Below are positions 46,358-58,489 of a stretch of 64,000 nt of DNA, one piece after another. Position 1 is the stretch's first letter. Every line of letters starts with the position of its first letter. The stretch covers positions 24,117-88,116 of IMG/VR virus record IMGVR_UViG_3300027754_000064; one strand, given 5' to 3'. A program made the translations under genes and the position numbers. A model generated the notes under the pieces. That model was not told the DNA's origin. It saw only the letters and a program-made list of their open reading frames with translations, and did not search any database. The DNA comes from a virus.

Positions 46358-46711
46358 ATGACAATAAAAAGGCCTATCTGTAATACTTGCAACAAGAATT
46401 ATTGTGCTATTAATTACAAAAGGAATGACATAACTCACTACCGTAGTATTTGCGATGGGTGTGGTAAGACTAGGGCTAAGAAAAAACCTAGAATTTATAA
46501 TTGGGAAAAATCAGGATACAAGAAAAAACCCACATGTGATTTATGTGGGTTTCGTAGTGTATTTCCAACGCAAATTACCGTATTTCATATTGACGGTAAT
46601 TTAGAAAATATTGTATTAAGTAATTTGCGTAGCATATGTTTGAATTGTGTTGAAGTAGTAAAGAAAAAAGAAGTTACTTGGAAACGCGGTGACTTACAAG
46701 TTGACTATTGA
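46358..46711 (+). CDS. Four-CxxC zinc protein with degenerate HNH motif
   Basis: 117 residues. Four Cys pairs (CNTC, CDGC, CDLC, CLNC) make two treble-clef/zinc-ribbon sites. The region VFHIDGNLENIVLSNLRSICLNC follows the HNH layout (HxDGN...NL..LC.NC), but the final catalytic His is missing. It ends WKRGDLQVDY. Very similar proteins are conserved in marine T4-like cyanophages (from memory of the pattern). It is on the opposite strand to its neighbours and converges with gp1, overlapping it tail to tail by 18 nt. A DNA-binding or inactive nuclease role is inferred. Confidence 0.75.
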   Translation: MTIKRPICNTCNKNYCAINYKRNDITHYRSICDGCGKTRAKKKPRIYNWEKSGYKKKPTCDLCGFRSVFPTQITVFHIDGNLENIVLSNLRSICLNCVEVVKKKEVTWKRGDLQVDY

Positions 46712-47329
46712 TTGAATTTTTTTATGTAGGTCATCTATTGTCCCATCATTAGCAATGATATAGTCATACTCTAATCCAACGCTACTATATTCACTAGCAT
46801 GAATACCTAATTGTTCAAGATGATTTCTCCCAAGAGCCCAGCCTAAATTACCGTTTTCACCTTTATTAAAGTTTATTGCATGTGAATACCATTCAGGGTT
46901 AGCACCTCTTTCAACTCTAATAGTAATTCCACCTGCATTTTTAATAGCCCCTACCTCATTGTAGAATCTACAATCTGTTAATACAATATTATCAGCAGAA
47001 GTTCTTAATTTGTTTTCTACTGATGCTACCCAAATGTCACTATGAAATGCGTTACGGCAAACTTCTGTTCCCCAATACTGTAGAATCCATCGTGGAGTAA
47101 GATGAGGCATGCCTAATCGTTCTGCCCACCATTGATCAACTTGTTCACGCCATTCTCTGCTAGACTTGGTAGTGCCCTCTAGCATTTCACGATCCCAGTT
47201 AAATACCGCTGCTACAGCATCTTTTAGAGAAGCGGCAAAGCTTAATCTTTTATAGCCATGAAATGTAGTCAGATAATCTGCTATGGTGTCCTTGCCAGAA
47301 TTTATCAACCCGGTAATTCCAATGATCAT
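46694..47329 (-). CDS. 1: Deoxynucleoside monophosphate kinase (gp1)
   Basis: 211 residues. P-loop GLINSGKDT (7-15), then FAASLKDAVAAVFNWDREMLEG, WILQYWGTEVCRNAFHSDIWV, and VLTDCRFYNEV (Walker B/LID-type region). This layout is specific to T4-type dNMP kinases, which convert dNMPs including hydroxymethyl-dCMP in T4 to diphosphates for DNA synthesis. The AGGAG ribosome site is inside a 10-12-bp hairpin (47335-47370). It lies between gp13-like and gp18, a late region, although it is an early-function gene. Confidence 0.9.
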   Translation of the reverse strand: MIIGITGLINSGKDTIADYLTTFHGYKRLSFAASLKDAVAAVFNWDREMLEGTTKSSREWREQVDQWWAERLGMPHLTPRWILQYWGTEVCRNAFHSDIWVASVENKLRTSADNIVLTDCRFYNEVGAIKNAGGITIRVERGANPEWYSHAINFNKGENGNLGWALGRNHLEQLGIHASEYSSVGLEYDYIIANDGTIDDLHKKIQSIVNL

Positions 47330-47334
47330 ATGGT

Positions 47335-47370
47335 AAGCTCCTGTAAATATATATTATATTACAGGAGCTT
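47335..47370 (-). promoter_or_regulatory. RBS-sequestering hairpin with internal early-type -10 box
   Basis: Inverted repeat AAGCTCCTGT / ACAGGAGCTT (12 bp with flanking A-T pairs). The 3' arm holds the AGGAG site of gp1. Inside the loop region on the minus strand is TATAAT (47358-47353), with TTTATT 17 nt upstream (47381-47376). A start about 7 nt past TATAAT would drop the 5' arm and free the site. Confidence 0.6.
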
Positions 47371-47390: not shown

Positions 47391-48176
47391 TTAACCTTGA
47401 ATCCAAGTCAATGGCTGAGAATAGTCTTGATATTTTCTCAGATCGTCCAATAGTGCTTCTTGCAACGCTTTGGATTCAGCTTTCATCGCAGTACCATTTA
47501 AAGTAGTGCCGCCACCTGGACCAGCAATAGTACCAAATTTTTCGCGGGCTTCTCCAATGATACCTTTTAGAACTGCTAGAACATAGTCACCAATCCAAAC
47601 TCCAGCACCTGGATCTTGCAATAGAACTTCAACAGGTCTTTGCACATCAGCCCAAACTAATATGCGTTCTCCAGTTCCCTTAAAATCTCTAACTACTCTA
47701 AGAACTTTAGTAACTGGATCAAAAGTATAATTGACATAACCACCAAACATTCTTGCTGCCAATTCAACATAACCGGCATAAAAATCATATGTTGCCATGC
47801 CACCGGTATAGTTATAATTTAACAAGTAAGTGTTAAGAATAGCACTTGAGAAAGGATCAAAAGATGTAGAACCAGTACCTGTTTCAAGTCCTACTGTTCT
47901 ACGAAATAGTGCCCTTACATTAATAAATTCTTGAGGTAAGGTGTAAGTGTCTATGTTTTGAATAACCGTCATTAATGTATACGATTCAGCGGTAGCATTT
48001 TGTGCCCGCTGACGATATAGTTTAATGGTATAATTGAATGCAGCCTCATAATGCTGAGGATCTAGTTCAATATCTATAATACCATCACCTAATCGTAATC
48101 TTAGGTTAGTGAATAATGATTCTTTTAATTCATCTAAGTTTAGATTAGTAGGTGTGGATAATATATTTGCGGTCAT
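47391..48176 (-). CDS. Neck protein gp13-like
   Basis: 261 residues (T4 gp13 is 309). N-terminal LKESLFTNLRLRLGDGIIDIELDPQHYEAAFNYTIKLYRQRAQN matches the gp13 helix pattern. The C-terminal WIGDYVLAVLKGIIGEAREKFGTI.GPGGGTTLNGTAMKAESKALQEALLDDLRKY matches the gp13 GGVTLNG..L..EA region. gp13 joins the portal to gp14 at the head-tail neck. It has its own late promoter inside an inverted repeat. In T4, gp14 follows directly; here gp14 is on the other strand 1.7 kb away. Confidence 0.65.
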   Translation of the reverse strand: MTANILSTPTNLNLDELKESLFTNLRLRLGDGIIDIELDPQHYEAAFNYTIKLYRQRAQNATAESYTLMTVIQNIDTYTLPQEFINVRALFRRTVGLETGTGSTSFDPFSSAILNTYLLNYNYTGGMATYDFYAGYVELAARMFGGYVNYTFDPVTKVLRVVRDFKGTGERILVWADVQRPVEVLLQDPGAGVWIGDYVLAVLKGIIGEAREKFGTIAGPGGGTTLNGTAMKAESKALQEALLDDLRKYQDYSQPLTWIQG

Positions 48177-48180
48177 TTTT

Positions 48181-48215
48181 TGTAATCCTGATATATGTTA
48201 TTTATCAGGATTACA
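48181..48215 (-). promoter_or_regulatory. Late promoter embedded in RBS-sequestering inverted repeat (gp13)
   Basis: Perfect 12-bp inverted repeat TGTAATCCTGAT / ATCAGGATTACA. The late box GATAAATA (48206-48199) overlaps the 5' arm. The 3' arm contains the CAGGA ribosome site 9 nt before ATG 48176. RNA reading through from upstream would close the site; RNA started at about 48193 lacks the 5' arm. Confidence 0.7.
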
Positions 48216-48645
48216 GGTCATTCTCTTTTCTATTCTCGCTTTTAGTTACATCAAATACACCACTTGGATAGCGACTCATCAACTTATCAACATTGCCCTC
48301 AATGACTTTATTAGGATCAAAGCCAAGCGCCCTGCAGGTGTTGATCCAGTACCACATGATATCACCTAATTCACGCTCCATATGAAATAGATTTTCCTTG
48401 GTTAGTGGCTTCCCTTGAAAAATCATTTTCTTTACGATTTCATTGAACTCACCACACTCAGAACTAAGTCCTAATGCCCCTGTAATTAACAAAGGCATAT
48501 TAACTTGCGGACCATACTCCTCAATAGAGTCATCCCTATTATCAGACAATTGGTCTAACCTATTAATAAAATCTGTCAAATAATTACTAGGTCTACTAGT
48601 AACTGCCTCTACAAATTCGCTATACTTGTTTAAATCTACACTCAT
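48211..48645 (-). CDS. mazG: MazG-like nucleotide pyrophosphohydrolase
   Basis: 144 residues, an all-helical MazG domain. Metal-binding ECGE (E63, E66) in LGLSSECGEFNEIVKK and ELGD (E92, D95) in RELGDIMWYW form the four-acidic-residue site. NVDKLMSRYPSG is the closing motif. MazG hydrolyses (d)NTPs or lowers (p)ppGpp; in marine phages it is thought to tune host nucleotide pools. It is read through from the upstream 399-residue early-promoter gene. Confidence 0.9.
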   Translation of the reverse strand: MSVDLNKYSEFVEAVTSRPSNYLTDFINRLDQLSDNRDDSIEEYGPQVNMPLLITGALGLSSECGEFNEIVKKMIFQGKPLTKENLFHMERELGDIMWYWINTCRALGFDPNKVIEGNVDKLMSRYPSGVFDVTKSENRKENDL

Positions 48646-48657
48646 TTTTTATCCTTA

Positions 48658-49857
48658 TTAAAATGCTTTTAAAATGACCATGTGTTCGTTGAACCTTCCT
48701 GTAGGAGTAACGGACACTGCCTTAATTTCTTTAAAGTATTTACGAGCAGCCGGCTTGCTACCCATAATTTCTTTGATCTGTTCTGCTGGTTTACGCAGTG
48801 TTTTACATTCACTTTGGGTAGTATCAAACCCTAATAGCGTATTACCTTTGACAGTAAAGTATTTACTATATTCGTCAGCAATGTAGTGATGAAGTTTACG
48901 CCGTGAAGTATCATAAACCCACGCTTCACTTGCACCATGTAGTTTAGTTGGGTGTAAACTTGTTAGATTAAGTTTAGTAGCCGCATCTACAAATTCACGC
49001 AAATATTTAAGTTTAGATACTTGCTTTTCAACTGGAACTGCTTTGCGTTTACGAGGAGCTTTGCTAACCTTTTTAACAGTAACATAACTACCGATTTCGC
49101 TAAGAACCAATTCAATAAACTTAATAATGTTTTTGATTTGTTGCTTACTCAAATGCATGTAACCTTGTACAAGTTGGTCATCTTTACCTTCTTGTACCTC
49201 GGTAAACTCAATGAGTTTTTTATTCCAAGTTTCAACCATGAAACTAACATGCTGAGGCAATACATTCTTTTTAGCCAATTCATCAATTGGGCGGTATGTA
49301 TGTTTAGTAGGTGCACCTGCTTGAATGAAATCATCTAGCAAGCCTTCCAATTCACCTGCGGCTTCACTAGCCTTTTCCCGCATGATTTCTTGTACATTAG
49401 GCCGATTGACAGCCGGCGCCTCAGACTTAACTGGGCCACCTGTGCGGCTAGCCTCTTTGACTTCGGGTTTATAGATTGTATTCAACAACCTACCGATTTC
49501 ATTGTCCAAGGTCTGTTTTTCATATTCTACTAATACTAGACCACGGAGTGTCATACGAGACAACCAACCAATCGTTGGGATGATTTCGTTGTCAGCAACA
49601 CGCCTGATAGTTTTAGCTTCAGTAGTTTTGGCATTCAAGTCTAGGTACTGTGCCAAAAATTCTTTGGCGTCTTTCTTGTTATAAAATTTGTTGTACCAAT
49701 TGAACGCTCGGGATAGTGCTATACCGCGATCATCCTCAGTAGGCTGAATCAGGAACGAAGGCTCTTCACCAAAATATTTGACATCTTCATCCTTGGGGGT
49801 CAGACTACGGACCAAACCAACTTCTTCTACGGCTTTCTTGCTAGCTTTCCTAACCAT
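48658..49857 (-). CDS. 399-residue phage protein of unknown function, early promoter
   Basis: Start chosen at ATG 49857 (AGGAG 5 nt upstream); a GTG at 49863 is less likely. Helical and charged. Segments include GIALSRAFNWYNKFYNKKDAKEFLAQYL, ADNEIIPTIGWLSRMTLRGLVL, a linker rich in E/A/P, LSKQQIKNIIKFIELVLSEI, and a basic KKVSKAPRKRKAVPVEKQ stretch. The C-terminal half (KLKYLREFVDAATKLNL, LHGASEAWVYDTSRRKLHHYIAD, FDTTQSECKTLRKP) looks like a conserved globular domain. DNA- or RNA-binding is possible from the basic linker. It is transcribed from a near-consensus sigma-70 promoter with mazG downstream. Confidence 0.6.
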   Translation of the reverse strand: MVRKASKKAVEEVGLVRSLTPKDEDVKYFGEEPSFLIQPTEDDRGIALSRAFNWYNKFYNKKDAKEFLAQYLDLNAKTTEAKTIRRVADNEIIPTIGWLSRMTLRGLVLVEYEKQTLDNEIGRLLNTIYKPEVKEASRTGGPVKSEAPAVNRPNVQEIMREKASEAAGELEGLLDDFIQAGAPTKHTYRPIDELAKKNVLPQHVSFMVETWNKKLIEFTEVQEGKDDQLVQGYMHLSKQQIKNIIKFIELVLSEIGSYVTVKKVSKAPRKRKAVPVEKQVSKLKYLREFVDAATKLNLTSLHPTKLHGASEAWVYDTSRRKLHHYIADEYSKYFTVKGNTLLGFDTTQSECKTLRKPAEQIKEIMGSKPAARKYFKEIKAVSVTPTGRFNEHMVILKAF

Positions 49858-49886
49858 GATCACTCCTGTTTACGATCTATATATCA

Positions 49887-49915
49887 ATGATACACGATCT
49901 GCCATTTATTGTCAA
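49887..49915 (-). promoter_or_regulatory. Near-consensus sigma-70 early promoter
   Basis: TTGACA (49915-49910), 17-nt spacer, TATCAT (49892-49887) on the minus strand. It lies in the divergent region shared with the plus-strand gp14 late promoter. It drives the 399-residue gene and probably mazG. Confidence 0.8.
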
Positions 49916-55862: not shown

Positions 55863-58457
55863 TTATAGTCTACCTATGGCGATTTCAATGATACCCTCGC
55901 CTGAGAAGTTTTCTAATGCCTTACCAATTACTGTACCTATAGTAGGACTATGTGTAGGTCGTGCATAACCATTTCCACCGCTAATCATCATATCGCCTTT
56001 ACGAATTACACCTCGTACTTTACAAGGAACTCTACCTTGTAGTGCTATAGGAACTGCTATACCTTGACATGTAGCGTTCATTACATATGCAGGATTAGAT
56101 GACACTACACCTGCTACTTTCATTGTTTCATCAGTAGCTAATGTGACTTCTTTATCCCCACCAAACTCTAATACAGTACCTGGTTCATAATCATAATCTG
56201 CTTCATAGTATTCTGCTAAGTCAGCGTATGTAGCATTTAATCTTGATCCTGCACTCAAAGACCAATTGCCTGTAATTGTTCCTACATTAGAATTAGCCCC
56301 TGTAGTGAGATTCGCCCCATAAAATGTTGCCACTCCTGTTCCCACTTGACCTGTGTAAGTTGGCAAATATGAAGCAACATTACTATCACCATATGTTCCT
56401 GCAAAACTAATTGCTGCACCATTAGCATAATAATAATTATCAGTCTTTATACCACCAGTTGACACATTAGCAGTCACCGAAAGACTACCTAATGTACCTA
56501 CAGTGGTAATATTTCCCTGTGATGCGGTTGTTAATGTACCTGTTAATAAAGTTGCTGATAGTTGACCTGTACCTGCATCAAATGACAAATTTGCATTTGC
56601 ACCTAATGCACGATTTGCAGTAGTACTACCATTTACAAACGAAACATAATACACTCCTGAACTTTGTGCGGTTACTACACCGTAATCGCTAACATTAGAG
56701 TATGCTACATTTAAATTAGTAACACGGGTAGTACTAGTTACTGTTAAAGGTGCAGTGCCTATTGCTACATTAGAAGTTAAAGTGCTGGCTACTACACTAT
56801 TAGTAGCATTTACATTGTTAGCACCTACATTTCCTGTTACTGTCAGATATCCTGCTACGTTTACTCCAGTGCCAGTAGCTACAATAATATTTGCATTGCC
56901 TGCAACACTTAGTGTAATATTTCCATTGGCTGCAGGAATATTAACATTGCTATTACCATTTGCAAGCGTTCCTATAAAGTTACCACCGGTGATATTGCCA
57001 GTCCCTACAATTACTCCAGTACCAAAGCCTAAGTTACCTACATTAGCATTACCTGTTGTAGTAATAGTGTTCGCACCTGCTGCTATAATACCAATGATGT
57101 TACCACCAGTTATATTACCTGTACCAACTATAACCCCACTACCAAATCCTAAGTTACCAACGTTAGCATTACCAGTAGTACTGATTGTATTGGCACCTGC
57201 TGCTATAATACCAATGATGTTACCGCCAGTTATGTTACCTGTGCCAGTTATTACTCCAGTGCCAAAGCCTAAGTTACCTACATTAGCATTACCTGTTGTA
57301 GTAATAGTGTTCGCACCTGCTGCTATAATACCAATGATGTTACCACCAGTTATATTACCTGTAGCCGTTATATTGCTATTTGAATTTAAAAGTGTTGCTG
57401 ATAAATTTCCTGTTGCGGCGTTAAAAGATATATTAGCATTAGAACCCAATGCATAGTTAGCAGTAGTATTACCATTTACAAATACTGGATAAAATGTACC
57501 TGTTGTTTGAGTTGTGACTACTTCAAAATCACTTACGTTAGCGTAATTTACATTTAAATTAGCTACGCGGGTAGTAGAAGTGACAACAATAGGAGTAGTA
57601 CCTGTTGCTACATTAGAAAACAATCTAGTAGCGGTAACTATTCCAGTAGCATTAAGGTTTGCTACATTAGCATTGCCGTTAACTGTTAGTAAATTTGTAG
57701 TATAATTCCAAGTAAAATCTGCGTCACCATCTAATAAATTATTATTATTAAATTGAATAGTTGTATTAGAACCACCTGCTGCCACAGATCCTGAACCACC
57801 TACAGCCGAAATAGCTCTACCACCGCTAGTATATGTTGAGTACCCTGAAGAATTGACAGGAGTAGTTAATGAGGGATCTGAATATAATGAAAAAGTATTA
57901 GCAGTAATGACATTGGCATAGTAACTATTACCATTAACCTGAGTCATTCCCACTACACCTGTAATAGTAACTAATGCGCCTTCAGTGAAAAAGTTATCAG
58001 CCGCTGTAGTAACTACAGCAGGATTAGCTTTAGTAATATTACTAATATTTGCACTAATAGTAGATTTAGGAGTCCAACTTAAATTACCTGTTCCATCAGT
58101 TTCTAATACATAACCAATAGAACCACCGTCAATTTTAACATTGCTAACATTACCCAAAGTGATTAGTCCACCTACAGTACCACCACGATTAGTCCAATCA
58201 GACCCATTATAGGTAAGTATTTGACCATTGCCAATATTAGCACCATCAATGTCTAAATTGCCAACAGCGCCAGTTATTTGATCAAAATCAATCGCCGAGT
58301 AAGAAGTTAATACTTCAATGTTTTCATTGGGGTCAGATTTACCTATATAAAGCTGTTTAGAATCTGTTGCCCAACCAAATTCTGCTTCATCCAACTGAGG
58401 TAAATCAACGATATTACCCGATCGTTGTTGTATCTTGCTGATCTGTATTATAGCCAT
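55863..58457 (-). CDS. Tail-fibre protein with conserved DLAEYYEADYDYEPG C-terminal domain
   Basis: 864 residues. The N-terminus IIQISKIQQRSGNIVDLPQLDEAEFGWATDSKQLYIG is a phage fibre docking motif. The body has GYVLETDGTGNLSW, NTTIQFNNNNLLDGDADF and a 40-residue repeat (FGTGVITGTGNITGGNIIG, IIAAGANTITTTGNANVGN) in three and a part copies. The last 120 or so residues (DLAEYYEADYDYEPGTVLEFGG, VTLATDETMKVAGVVSSNPAY, VPCKVRGVIRKGDMMISGGNGYA) form a domain seen at the ends of many phage fibres, possibly a self-cleaving or trimerising tip. The late promoter lies within an inverted repeat. Confidence 0.75.
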   Translation of the reverse strand: MAIIQISKIQQRSGNIVDLPQLDEAEFGWATDSKQLYIGKSDPNENIEVLTSYSAIDFDQITGAVGNLDIDGANIGNGQILTYNGSDWTNRGGTVGGLITLGNVSNVKIDGGSIGYVLETDGTGNLSWTPKSTISANISNITKANPAVVTTAADNFFTEGALVTITGVVGMTQVNGNSYYANVITANTFSLYSDPSLTTPVNSSGYSTYTSGGRAISAVGGSGSVAAGGSNTTIQFNNNNLLDGDADFTWNYTTNLLTVNGNANVANLNATGIVTATRLFSNVATGTTPIVVTSTTRVANLNVNYANVSDFEVVTTQTTGTFYPVFVNGNTTANYALGSNANISFNAATGNLSATLLNSNSNITATGNITGGNIIGIIAAGANTITTTGNANVGNLGFGTGVITGTGNITGGNIIGIIAAGANTISTTGNANVGNLGFGSGVIVGTGNITGGNIIGIIAAGANTITTTGNANVGNLGFGTGVIVGTGNITGGNFIGTLANGNSNVNIPAANGNITLSVAGNANIIVATGTGVNVAGYLTVTGNVGANNVNATNSVVASTLTSNVAIGTAPLTVTSTTRVTNLNVAYSNVSDYGVVTAQSSGVYYVSFVNGSTTANRALGANANLSFDAGTGQLSATLLTGTLTTASQGNITTVGTLGSLSVTANVSTGGIKTDNYYYANGAAISFAGTYGDSNVASYLPTYTGQVGTGVATFYGANLTTGANSNVGTITGNWSLSAGSRLNATYADLAEYYEADYDYEPGTVLEFGGDKEVTLATDETMKVAGVVSSNPAYVMNATCQGIAVPIALQGRVPCKVRGVIRKGDMMISGGNGYARPTHSPTIGTVIGKALENFSGEGIIEIAIGRL
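56981..57360. repeat. 120-bp tandem repeat, three full copies
   Basis: Exact 120-bp spacing of near-identical units (ends at 57120, 57240, 57360), with a partial copy at the left. In frame, 40 residues per unit, in the beta-repeat part of the 864-residue fibre. Copies 1 and 3 are almost identical and copy 2 is slightly diverged, which suggests recent expansion or conversion. Confidence 0.9.
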
Positions 58458-58489
58458 AAATGTAATCTTCTCAATTACATTTATTTATC
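58456..58489 (-). promoter_or_regulatory. Late promoter overlapping start-codon-sequestering inverted repeat
   Basis: Perfect 11-bp inverted repeat ATAAATGTAAT / ATTACATTTAT with a 7-nt loop. The late box GATAAATA (58489-58482) overlaps the 5' arm, and the 3' arm runs into the ATG at 58457. A late transcript starting near 58475 would lack the 5' arm. Confidence 0.65.

Follow-up and report, generated by a model that had tools for sequence, protein, structure and literature searches.

The gp13 gene unit and the hairpin at the gp13 start

The window analysed here is a 64,000-nucleotide stretch that forms part of an uncultured virus record of 88,116 bases (G000). On its minus strand, a gene unit begins with a sigma-70-like promoter (TTGACA-17-TATCAT, 49887-49915), which has 11 of 12 matches and is the best such site in a 4-kb scan. 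The first gene of the unit encodes a conserved protein of 399 residues (48658-49857, phrog_11903; 401 residues from a GTG at 49863 in the list of open reading frames). It is followed by a mazG-like pyrophosphatase (48211-48645; PHROG 229, E 6.6e-44), by gp13, a neck protein assigned as head-tail adaptor Ad2 (47391-48176; PHROG 211, E 9.7e-23), and, directly 3' of gp13, by a deoxynucleoside monophosphate (dNMP) kinase (46694-47329; PHROG 139, E 5.8e-48). An intrinsic-terminator-like site with 11 pairs and a T-run lies after the kinase (46525-46553).

The 4-kb scan listed 15 promoter-like sites compared with 14.1 in shuffled sequence, and 3 terminator-like sites compared with 2.3, and only the promoter with 11 of 12 matches and the 11-pair terminator stand out from this shuffle background. 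No terminator-like site was listed by this consensus scan on the minus strand between the promoter at 49915-49887 and the gp13 start, and gp13 is thus placed, on the evidence of the scan, downstream of same-strand genes with no terminator in between. A preliminary description of this DNA had proposed an early-promoter unit upstream of gp13, made up of the 399-residue gene and mazG, and the promoter that we found there is kept in relatives: 29 of 31 distinct regions upstream of the 399/401-residue gene contain a sigma-70 match of at least 10, a level reached by 4% of random stretches from the same loci. Together with the nucleotide-metabolism function, this promoter suggests that the genes upstream of gp13 are of early type. 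The layout of promoter, mazG, dNMP kinase and terminator would then set a late virion gene among nucleotide-metabolism genes behind an early-type promoter.

Elsewhere around the unit, a small open reading frame of 117 aa (46358-46711) runs against the other genes, on the plus strand, between the kinase and the sheath gene; its product has paired cysteines and looks by eye like an HNH endonuclease. The octamer GATAAATA, a T4-type late promoter, is present in 13 minus-strand copies and one plus-strand copy in the 88-kb record, a sign of one main late strand. The cyanophage matches listed by the first DNA search were set aside; they cover only the mazG end of the query.

Between the end of mazG and the start of gp13, we found an inverted repeat of 13 perfect pairs (48181-48215, minus strand), with all three elements packed into 40 bases. 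It had originally been described as a perfect 12-bp repeat; the repeat is real and perfect, and by sequence it is one pair longer. Its 5' arm, TGTAATCCTGATA (48203-48215), includes the stop codon of mazG (48213-48211) together with the first half of the late promoter, namely four bases of an GATAAATA octamer at 48199-48206. After a loop at 48202-48194, the 3' arm, TATCAGGATTACA (48181-48193), holds the entire gp13 Shine-Dalgarno sequence, AGGA (48186-48189), 9 nt before the ATG (48176). The overlap of the 5' arm with the late promoter and the position of the ribosome site in the 3' arm are therefore as the preliminary description had them. In T4, the late TATA box is described as lying about one helical turn upstream of the RNA start (in passages of PMC2988020), and from this geometry, applied to the octamer, we infer that RNA would begin at about 48193, where the 3' arm opens. 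As expected of T4-type late-promoter hairpins, the stem includes the Shine-Dalgarno sequence or the start codon, in the window and family-wide, and the octamer is placed, judged by position relative to a predicted start, for late RNA to lose the 5' arm.

Folding predictions for the two RNAs agree with what had been proposed for them, namely that read-through RNA would fold and close gp13 and that RNA begun at the late promoter would be open. The long leader RNA is predicted to fold at -16.5 kcal/mol (z about -6), and none of 200 shuffles was equally stable, while RNA begun at 48193 has a minimum free energy of 0, i.e., no stable fold. The predicted cost of opening the gp13 Shine-Dalgarno sequence is 13.6 kcal/mol in the long RNA compared with 0.5 kcal/mol from the predicted late start. 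The window contains 12 perfect inverted repeats with an arm of at least 10 and a loop of 3-15, of which the gp13 repeat is the longest. When the window was simulated ten times with a Markov-1 model, each simulation contained 0-4 repeats of this kind, and one of the ten included a 13-bp repeat, which would favour a chance product of AT-rich promoter and ribosome-site words that are partly complementary to each other.

The hairpin among related phages

To describe the distribution of the hairpin, uncultured viral contigs and isolates were combined into 248 loci, of which 222 had a gp13 match and 219 a called start, giving 122 distinct 60-nt leaders. For the window-like sample, two queries were used and the 80 closest loci taken for each: the best 80 of 426 confirmed relatives for the gp13 of the window, and the best 80 of 597 for that of relative L087. 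An ATAAATA- or TAAATA-type octamer was in range in 119 of the 122 distinct leaders, and in 94 of them it was GATAAATA. The Shine-Dalgarno sequence was more than 3 kcal/mol costlier to open in the long RNA than in the predicted late-start RNA in 95 of 118 scored leaders; three of the 122 had no octamer in range, and one of the remaining 119 no short-RNA score.

Among isolates, gp13 relatives were found in jumbo phages of the RaK2, CBB, 121Q, Munch, PA5oct, and Atu_ph07 kinds, with 23-42% identity to the gp13 of the window across the 58 isolate records found. Thirteen isolate leaders were inspected, nine with a co-directional upstream gene and four with an opposite-strand neighbour. A strong stem over the ribosome site was observed in eight of the nine co-directional isolates (CBB, RaK2, Munch, XaC1, 121Q, Hallingskeid, K64-1, and XbC2), which share 31-37% gp13 identity with the window. 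The stems of RaK2 and 121Q were read from the fold and carry no score, given that the annotated start lies inside the stem. These eight isolates are not independent, because the leaders of RaK2 and K64-1 are nearly identical, as are those of CBB and XbC2. In PA5oct, the remaining co-directional isolate, the gp13 stem is weak. The isolates with an opposite-strand neighbour had low scores in Atu_ph07 (-1.5) and Vibrio phage 2.275.O (2.1) and moderate ones in Phosso (5.2) and SCTP-2 (4.1). XacN1 and RAS14 were left unscored since their gp13 match lies inside a longer gene.

The preliminary description depended on the arms being kept as pairs in relatives, and comparison of the leader sequences indicates that they are. 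Among 83 distinct leaders, arms from the same leader pair at -11.4 kcal/mol, compared with -6.9 kcal/mol for swapped arms, and with the constant octamer excluded the values are -6.7 and -4.1 kcal/mol; in both cases, none of 10,000 permutations was as good. For column-by-column analysis, 82 of 83 reference leaders were aligned (A1; L141, a distant short leader, was left out) and divided by eye on the bases before GATA into a CTGATA group (A2) and a CCGATA group (A3), a split that favours the predicted structure. L187 and L210, to which neither register fits, were excluded from both. In A2 (48 sequences, 11 pairs), 80.1% of cells pair and two-sided changes occur in 7 of the 11 pairs (54 cells); in A3 (32 sequences, 9 pairs), 85.4% of cells pair, with two-sided changes in 4 of the 9 pairs (29 cells). 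Covariation was 0.298 in A2 compared with 0.175 in shuffles and 0.226 in A3 compared with 0.111, levels that none of 500 shuffles reached in either alignment. Slid registers, a control that preserves relatedness where shuffling does not, gave at most 0.098 and 0.147, respectively. Of five covariation measures, two are weak. As many pairs with changes on both sides were seen in 24 of 500 shuffles of A2 and in 161 of 500 of A3. For further pair types, 56 and 208 of 500 shuffles, respectively, did as well as the real alignment, and one slid A3 register had more of them than the true register (11 vs 9). The RNAalifold consensus contains only 5 pairs in A2 and 3 in A3; loop length and register vary.

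Taken by itself, the gp13 repeat is unusual, yet a chance origin would not be impossible, and it is the conservation of pairs in relatives that speaks against chance. With no arm permutation pairing as well and with covariation above every shuffle and slide in both alignments, we consider the probability of a chance repeat to be practically negligible. A perfect palindrome overlapping a promoter might alternatively act in the DNA, as an operator or cruciform through which a dimeric protein controls the late promoter. The arm sequence changes while the pairing stays, however, and the G-U cells of A2, which account for 45 of its 150 non-Watson-Crick cells (29 of the 49 such cells at the four Shine-Dalgarno core pairs), keep an RNA helix and not a DNA palindrome, although C-to-T bias may contribute to them; control at the DNA level therefore seems extremely improbable. 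The stem might instead serve the upstream mRNA, by terminating or attenuating it or as a place where RNase processes it, as it is a stable hairpin between two genes, and cleavage within it would also free or remove the ribosome site. An intrinsic terminator would be a G+C-rich stem followed by a T-run, but there is no T-run here on either strand and the terminator scan does not include this stem. Furthermore, neither termination nor processing needs a Shine-Dalgarno sequence and a late octamer in the arms throughout the family, which makes this a very unlikely explanation. The reading that we prefer, a hairpin that acts in RNA by hiding the ribosome site, is consistent with arms that change together across relatives.

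Upstream context, other late promoters, and the kinase start

We examined what lies upstream of gp13 in 114 leaders with a score and at least 420 nt of upstream sequence. A score of at least 4 kcal/mol, a limit first set for gp13 and then kept for other genes, was observed in 78 of 92 leaders behind mazG or another co-directional gene, and in 38 of 42 behind a co-directional gene not recognised as mazG. The corresponding count for noncoding or unclear upstream sequence was 9 of 14. With an antisense upstream gene, 2 of 5 leaders still scored at least 4, too few to decide, and none of the three leaders directly after the 399-aa gene showed strong sequestration.

The position of the mazG stop codon inside the 5' arm means that a terminating mazG ribosome could disturb the hairpin, and our main doubt is that ribosomes finishing mazG could open the stem on early RNA. 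Translational coupling would take this further: the stem would close gp13 only when mazG is not translated, and the ribosome terminating on mazG would melt it, such that gp13 would be made alongside mazG from early RNA. In 78 of the 92 co-directional leaders, the upstream gene stops 4-17 nt ahead of the octamer, which speaks for coupling. On the other hand, the distance from stop to octamer varies from -5 to 89 nt with no clear link to strength (Spearman 0.19, p 0.07, n=92), and the high scores behind co-directional genes not recognised as mazG also count against it, while the late octamer present in nearly all leaders has no reason under coupling. In T4, only 3 nt separate the nudE stop codon from the first of the octamers ahead of gene e, yet e is reported as repressed (in passages of PMC3014915). 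Coupling thus appears unlikely to us, and we continue to favour closure of gp13 on read-through RNA.

Directly before gp13, many relatives carry a noncoding RNA of ~380 nt that is structured and conserved (L063:1530-1960, L070, L037, L032, and L084). It has 85 predicted pairs, 39 of which show a two-sided change in at least one of five sequences. A motif search gave 88 loci, 83 of them with an RNA match, and at least 250 model positions were matched in 79 of the 88; ATAAATA lay within 330 nt downstream in 75 of the 83 matches, and gp13 was on the same strand in 69. No tRNA or tmRNA was found in the upstream noncoding element in 18 loci. A search against Rfam gave no match in five loci at the gathering threshold, and at a lax threshold one run gave none and another three chance-level matches.

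Loci with this RNA were compared with the window-like leaders. The 69 same-strand loci, 68 of them within 1.5 kb, reduce to 39 distinct leaders, 37 with an octamer. Scores of at least 4 were found in 14 of these 37, compared with 57 of 70 window-like co-directional leaders (Fisher p 1e-5); the hairpin is weaker behind the RNA, and we count this in favour of the proposed mechanism. When matched by gp13 identity to the window, the counts were 5 of 14 with the RNA vs 44 of 55 at 80-88% identity (p 0.002), and 9 of 23 vs 8 of 9 at 60-80% identity (p 0.018); all of these p-values ignore relatedness. In 29 of 36 loci, no more than three of the eight bases that follow the last stem of the structured RNA are T. 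A co-directional gene precedes the RNA in 20 of 29 loci, and therefore read-through into gp13 would still be possible there. The variation among relatives, with an upstream gene adjoining gp13 in some and the structured RNA lying between in others, amounts to a natural experiment on read-through.

Other late promoters served as a control. Across all scored starts linked to GATAAATA in four genomes, the median difference in opening cost was 0.1, 0.3, 2.4, and 0.6 kcal/mol, and for this difference gp13 ranked first of 9, first of 14, first of 12, and second of 51 in the record of the window and three relatives. By eye, a stem covers a ribosome site or AUG at 3 of the 14 GATAAATA sites in the record of the window, among them gp13 and an 864-residue gene described next, and a fourth site has a weak stem. 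Genome-wide, late promoters had strong sequestration in 10 of 49 cases after a co-directional gene vs 3 of 29 others, a trend only. Mutual exclusion of terminators and hairpins at late promoters was also considered in the four genomes and rejected, as it showed only a weak trend. The automatic Shine-Dalgarno score misses the T4 cases (soc scores -0.2, and e and 49 have no score owing to octamer choice or spelling), and it suits hairpins of the gp13 type without being a general detector.

A second late-promoter hairpin (58456-58484, minus strand), with 11 pairs, reaches into the AUG of an 864-residue gene (55863-58457, minus strand). Its product is probably structural, tail or fibre-like, a role that we infer only from its repeat-rich sequence. 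The GATAAATA octamer of this gene is at 58482-58489 on the minus strand, and the stem runs from within this octamer to the start codon, an arrangement close to that of T4 soc. Because its Shine-Dalgarno score is only -0.1, the AUG region was scored instead. In relatives, 80 loci gave 44 distinct leaders, of which 41 have an octamer and three do not; the AUG region scored at least 4 kcal/mol in 37 of the 41. The arms covary here as well, with own arms at -10.3 and swapped arms at -4.6 kcal/mol among 38 distinct leaders, and none of 10,000 permutations was as good. Separately, at L113:4866-4887 (record 4887, minus strand), a short gene beginning MAKIVEDAIV has GATAAATA and then a GGAG-bearing stem, and relative G005 has a leader like it at 87155.

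The dNMP kinase start carries a ribosome-site hairpin of its own, with 12 perfect pairs (47335-47370, minus strand). Its 3' arm contains AGGAG (47342-47338) and its loop TATAAT (47358-47353), and the RNA start predicted from this TATAAT is the first base of the 3' arm. The geometry is that of the gp13 hairpin in the same window, with a different promoter class. Ribosome-site hairpins with a sigma-70-like promoter were found at 21 of 77 distinct kinase starts, and their arms covary (own -13.9, swapped -10.6; 0 of 10,000). Another 23 of the 77 starts are leaderless: in all 23, a TATAAT-like box ends exactly 6 nt before the ATG, with a -35 element at 17 nt, and these occur in clades other than those bearing the hairpin. 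With fixed match limits, the leaderless layout was found at 23 of 77 kinase starts, compared with 25 of 2,619 ATGs of reading frames of at least 60 codons in the same loci, kinase starts included. In a Munch/CBB-like clade (12 of the 77), a stem and T-run can be seen by eye ahead of the kinase, and the Munch record has an annotated terminator after gp13. The remaining 21 of 77 kinase starts fit none of these layouts. In relatives, a TTTACT, TTTTCT, or TTTGCT box recurs 17 nt before the kinase TATAAT and may be a phage middle-promoter element.

The three devices at the kinase start point one way without being universal. Taken with the late-promoter hairpin at gp13, the hairpin or leaderless start of the kinase leads us to propose, tentatively and with somewhat more doubt than confidence, that in the mixed early/late unit a cistron can be translated only if the RNA was started at the promoter belonging to that cistron. 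We count the 21 kinase starts that fit no device against a strict rule of this kind. If it were true, the phage would keep its early and late proteins apart even though their RNAs overlap and their genes stay together.

Proposed timing of gp13 and comparison with known systems

The comparisons support the mechanism of the preliminary description well, and we consider it probable that gp13 is a late virion gene within an early-type unit, with a ribosome site predicted to be hidden until RNA arrives from its own late promoter. Read-through RNA from upstream would carry both arms, fold, and hide the gp13 Shine-Dalgarno sequence, and as a result gp13 would not be translated early. Later, a late RNA polymerase made of host core and a gp55-like sigma would start ~6 nt downstream of GATAAATA, near 48193; this start would remove the 5' arm and leave the ribosome site open. 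The phages with the predicted gp13 hairpin form a large family, most of them uncultured, and would keep a trick known from T4 over very great phage distances. A device of a few T4 genes would then be a conserved one at a single virion gene, in jumbo phages sharing about one third of gp13 residues. Such a hairpin may serve as a marker for late genes embedded in early-type units, and it suggests, in a form open to testing, a way in which overlapping RNAs could yield proteins at different times in large phages.

Foldback inhibition in the transposase mRNAs of IS10/Tn10 and IS50/Tn5 follows a related principle: RNA reading through from outside folds over the ribosome site, and RNA from the element's own promoter lacks one arm. 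A confirming passage for it was not found in our literature search. That system guards against outside promoters and involves no temporal phage programme, and it is nearest to the kinase hairpin.

A gp55-like late sigma was found in three of the six records searched (relatives G001, G003, and G004) and not in the 88-kb fragment of the window itself, G002, or G005. In Pectobacterium phage CBB and phage GAP32, ATAAATA is reported as the probable late promoter, with 35 motif copies (in passages of PMC5259590). This promoter class is shared with the window, and CBB has the gp13 stem. The word 'hairpin' is absent from the main text of PMC5259590. Neither in that text nor in our literature search, which had most subscription papers outside its range, did we find a published account of the gp13 hairpin, and the search found no PA5oct transcriptome.

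The closest precedents are in T4. The preliminary description had pointed to genes e, soc, and 49, and a late promoter combined with an early-RNA hairpin at the ribosome site is indeed in print for all three (in passages of PMC3014915 and PMC2988022). In our control folds, the stems at all three were seen. For gene e, about 100-fold less lysozyme is reported to be synthesised from the long RNA with the structure (in passages of PMC3014915). For I-TevI, the hairpin is described as forming only on upstream-promoter RNA, since late RNA lacks the needed sequence, and the arrangements at I-TevII, I-TevIII, segB, and Aeh1 mobE are stated to be similar (both in passages of PMC2988022). Gene 13 of T4 itself lacks TATAAATA within 80 nt upstream of its start, and a nearby stem leaves the Shine-Dalgarno sequence free by eye.

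As at T4 e, soc, and 49, a stem at gp13 is predicted to cover the ribosome site or AUG and has the late octamer at its 5' side or within it, and a late gene would sit inside an early-type unit with its late RNA predicted to lose the 5' arm. Unlike these cases, the gene controlled here is a neck protein, gp13. The 5' arm in the window also reaches 9 nt upstream of the octamer, whereas in our folds the T4 stems begin within about two bases of it or after it. The I-TevI-type devices are located on mobile homing endonuclease genes, while the gp13 device is on a virion gene and is kept over a wide phage group. Given the precedents at e, soc, 49, and I-TevI, the gp13 hairpin would be a known mechanism in a new place, differing from the descriptions found in the position of its arm and in its wider conservation.
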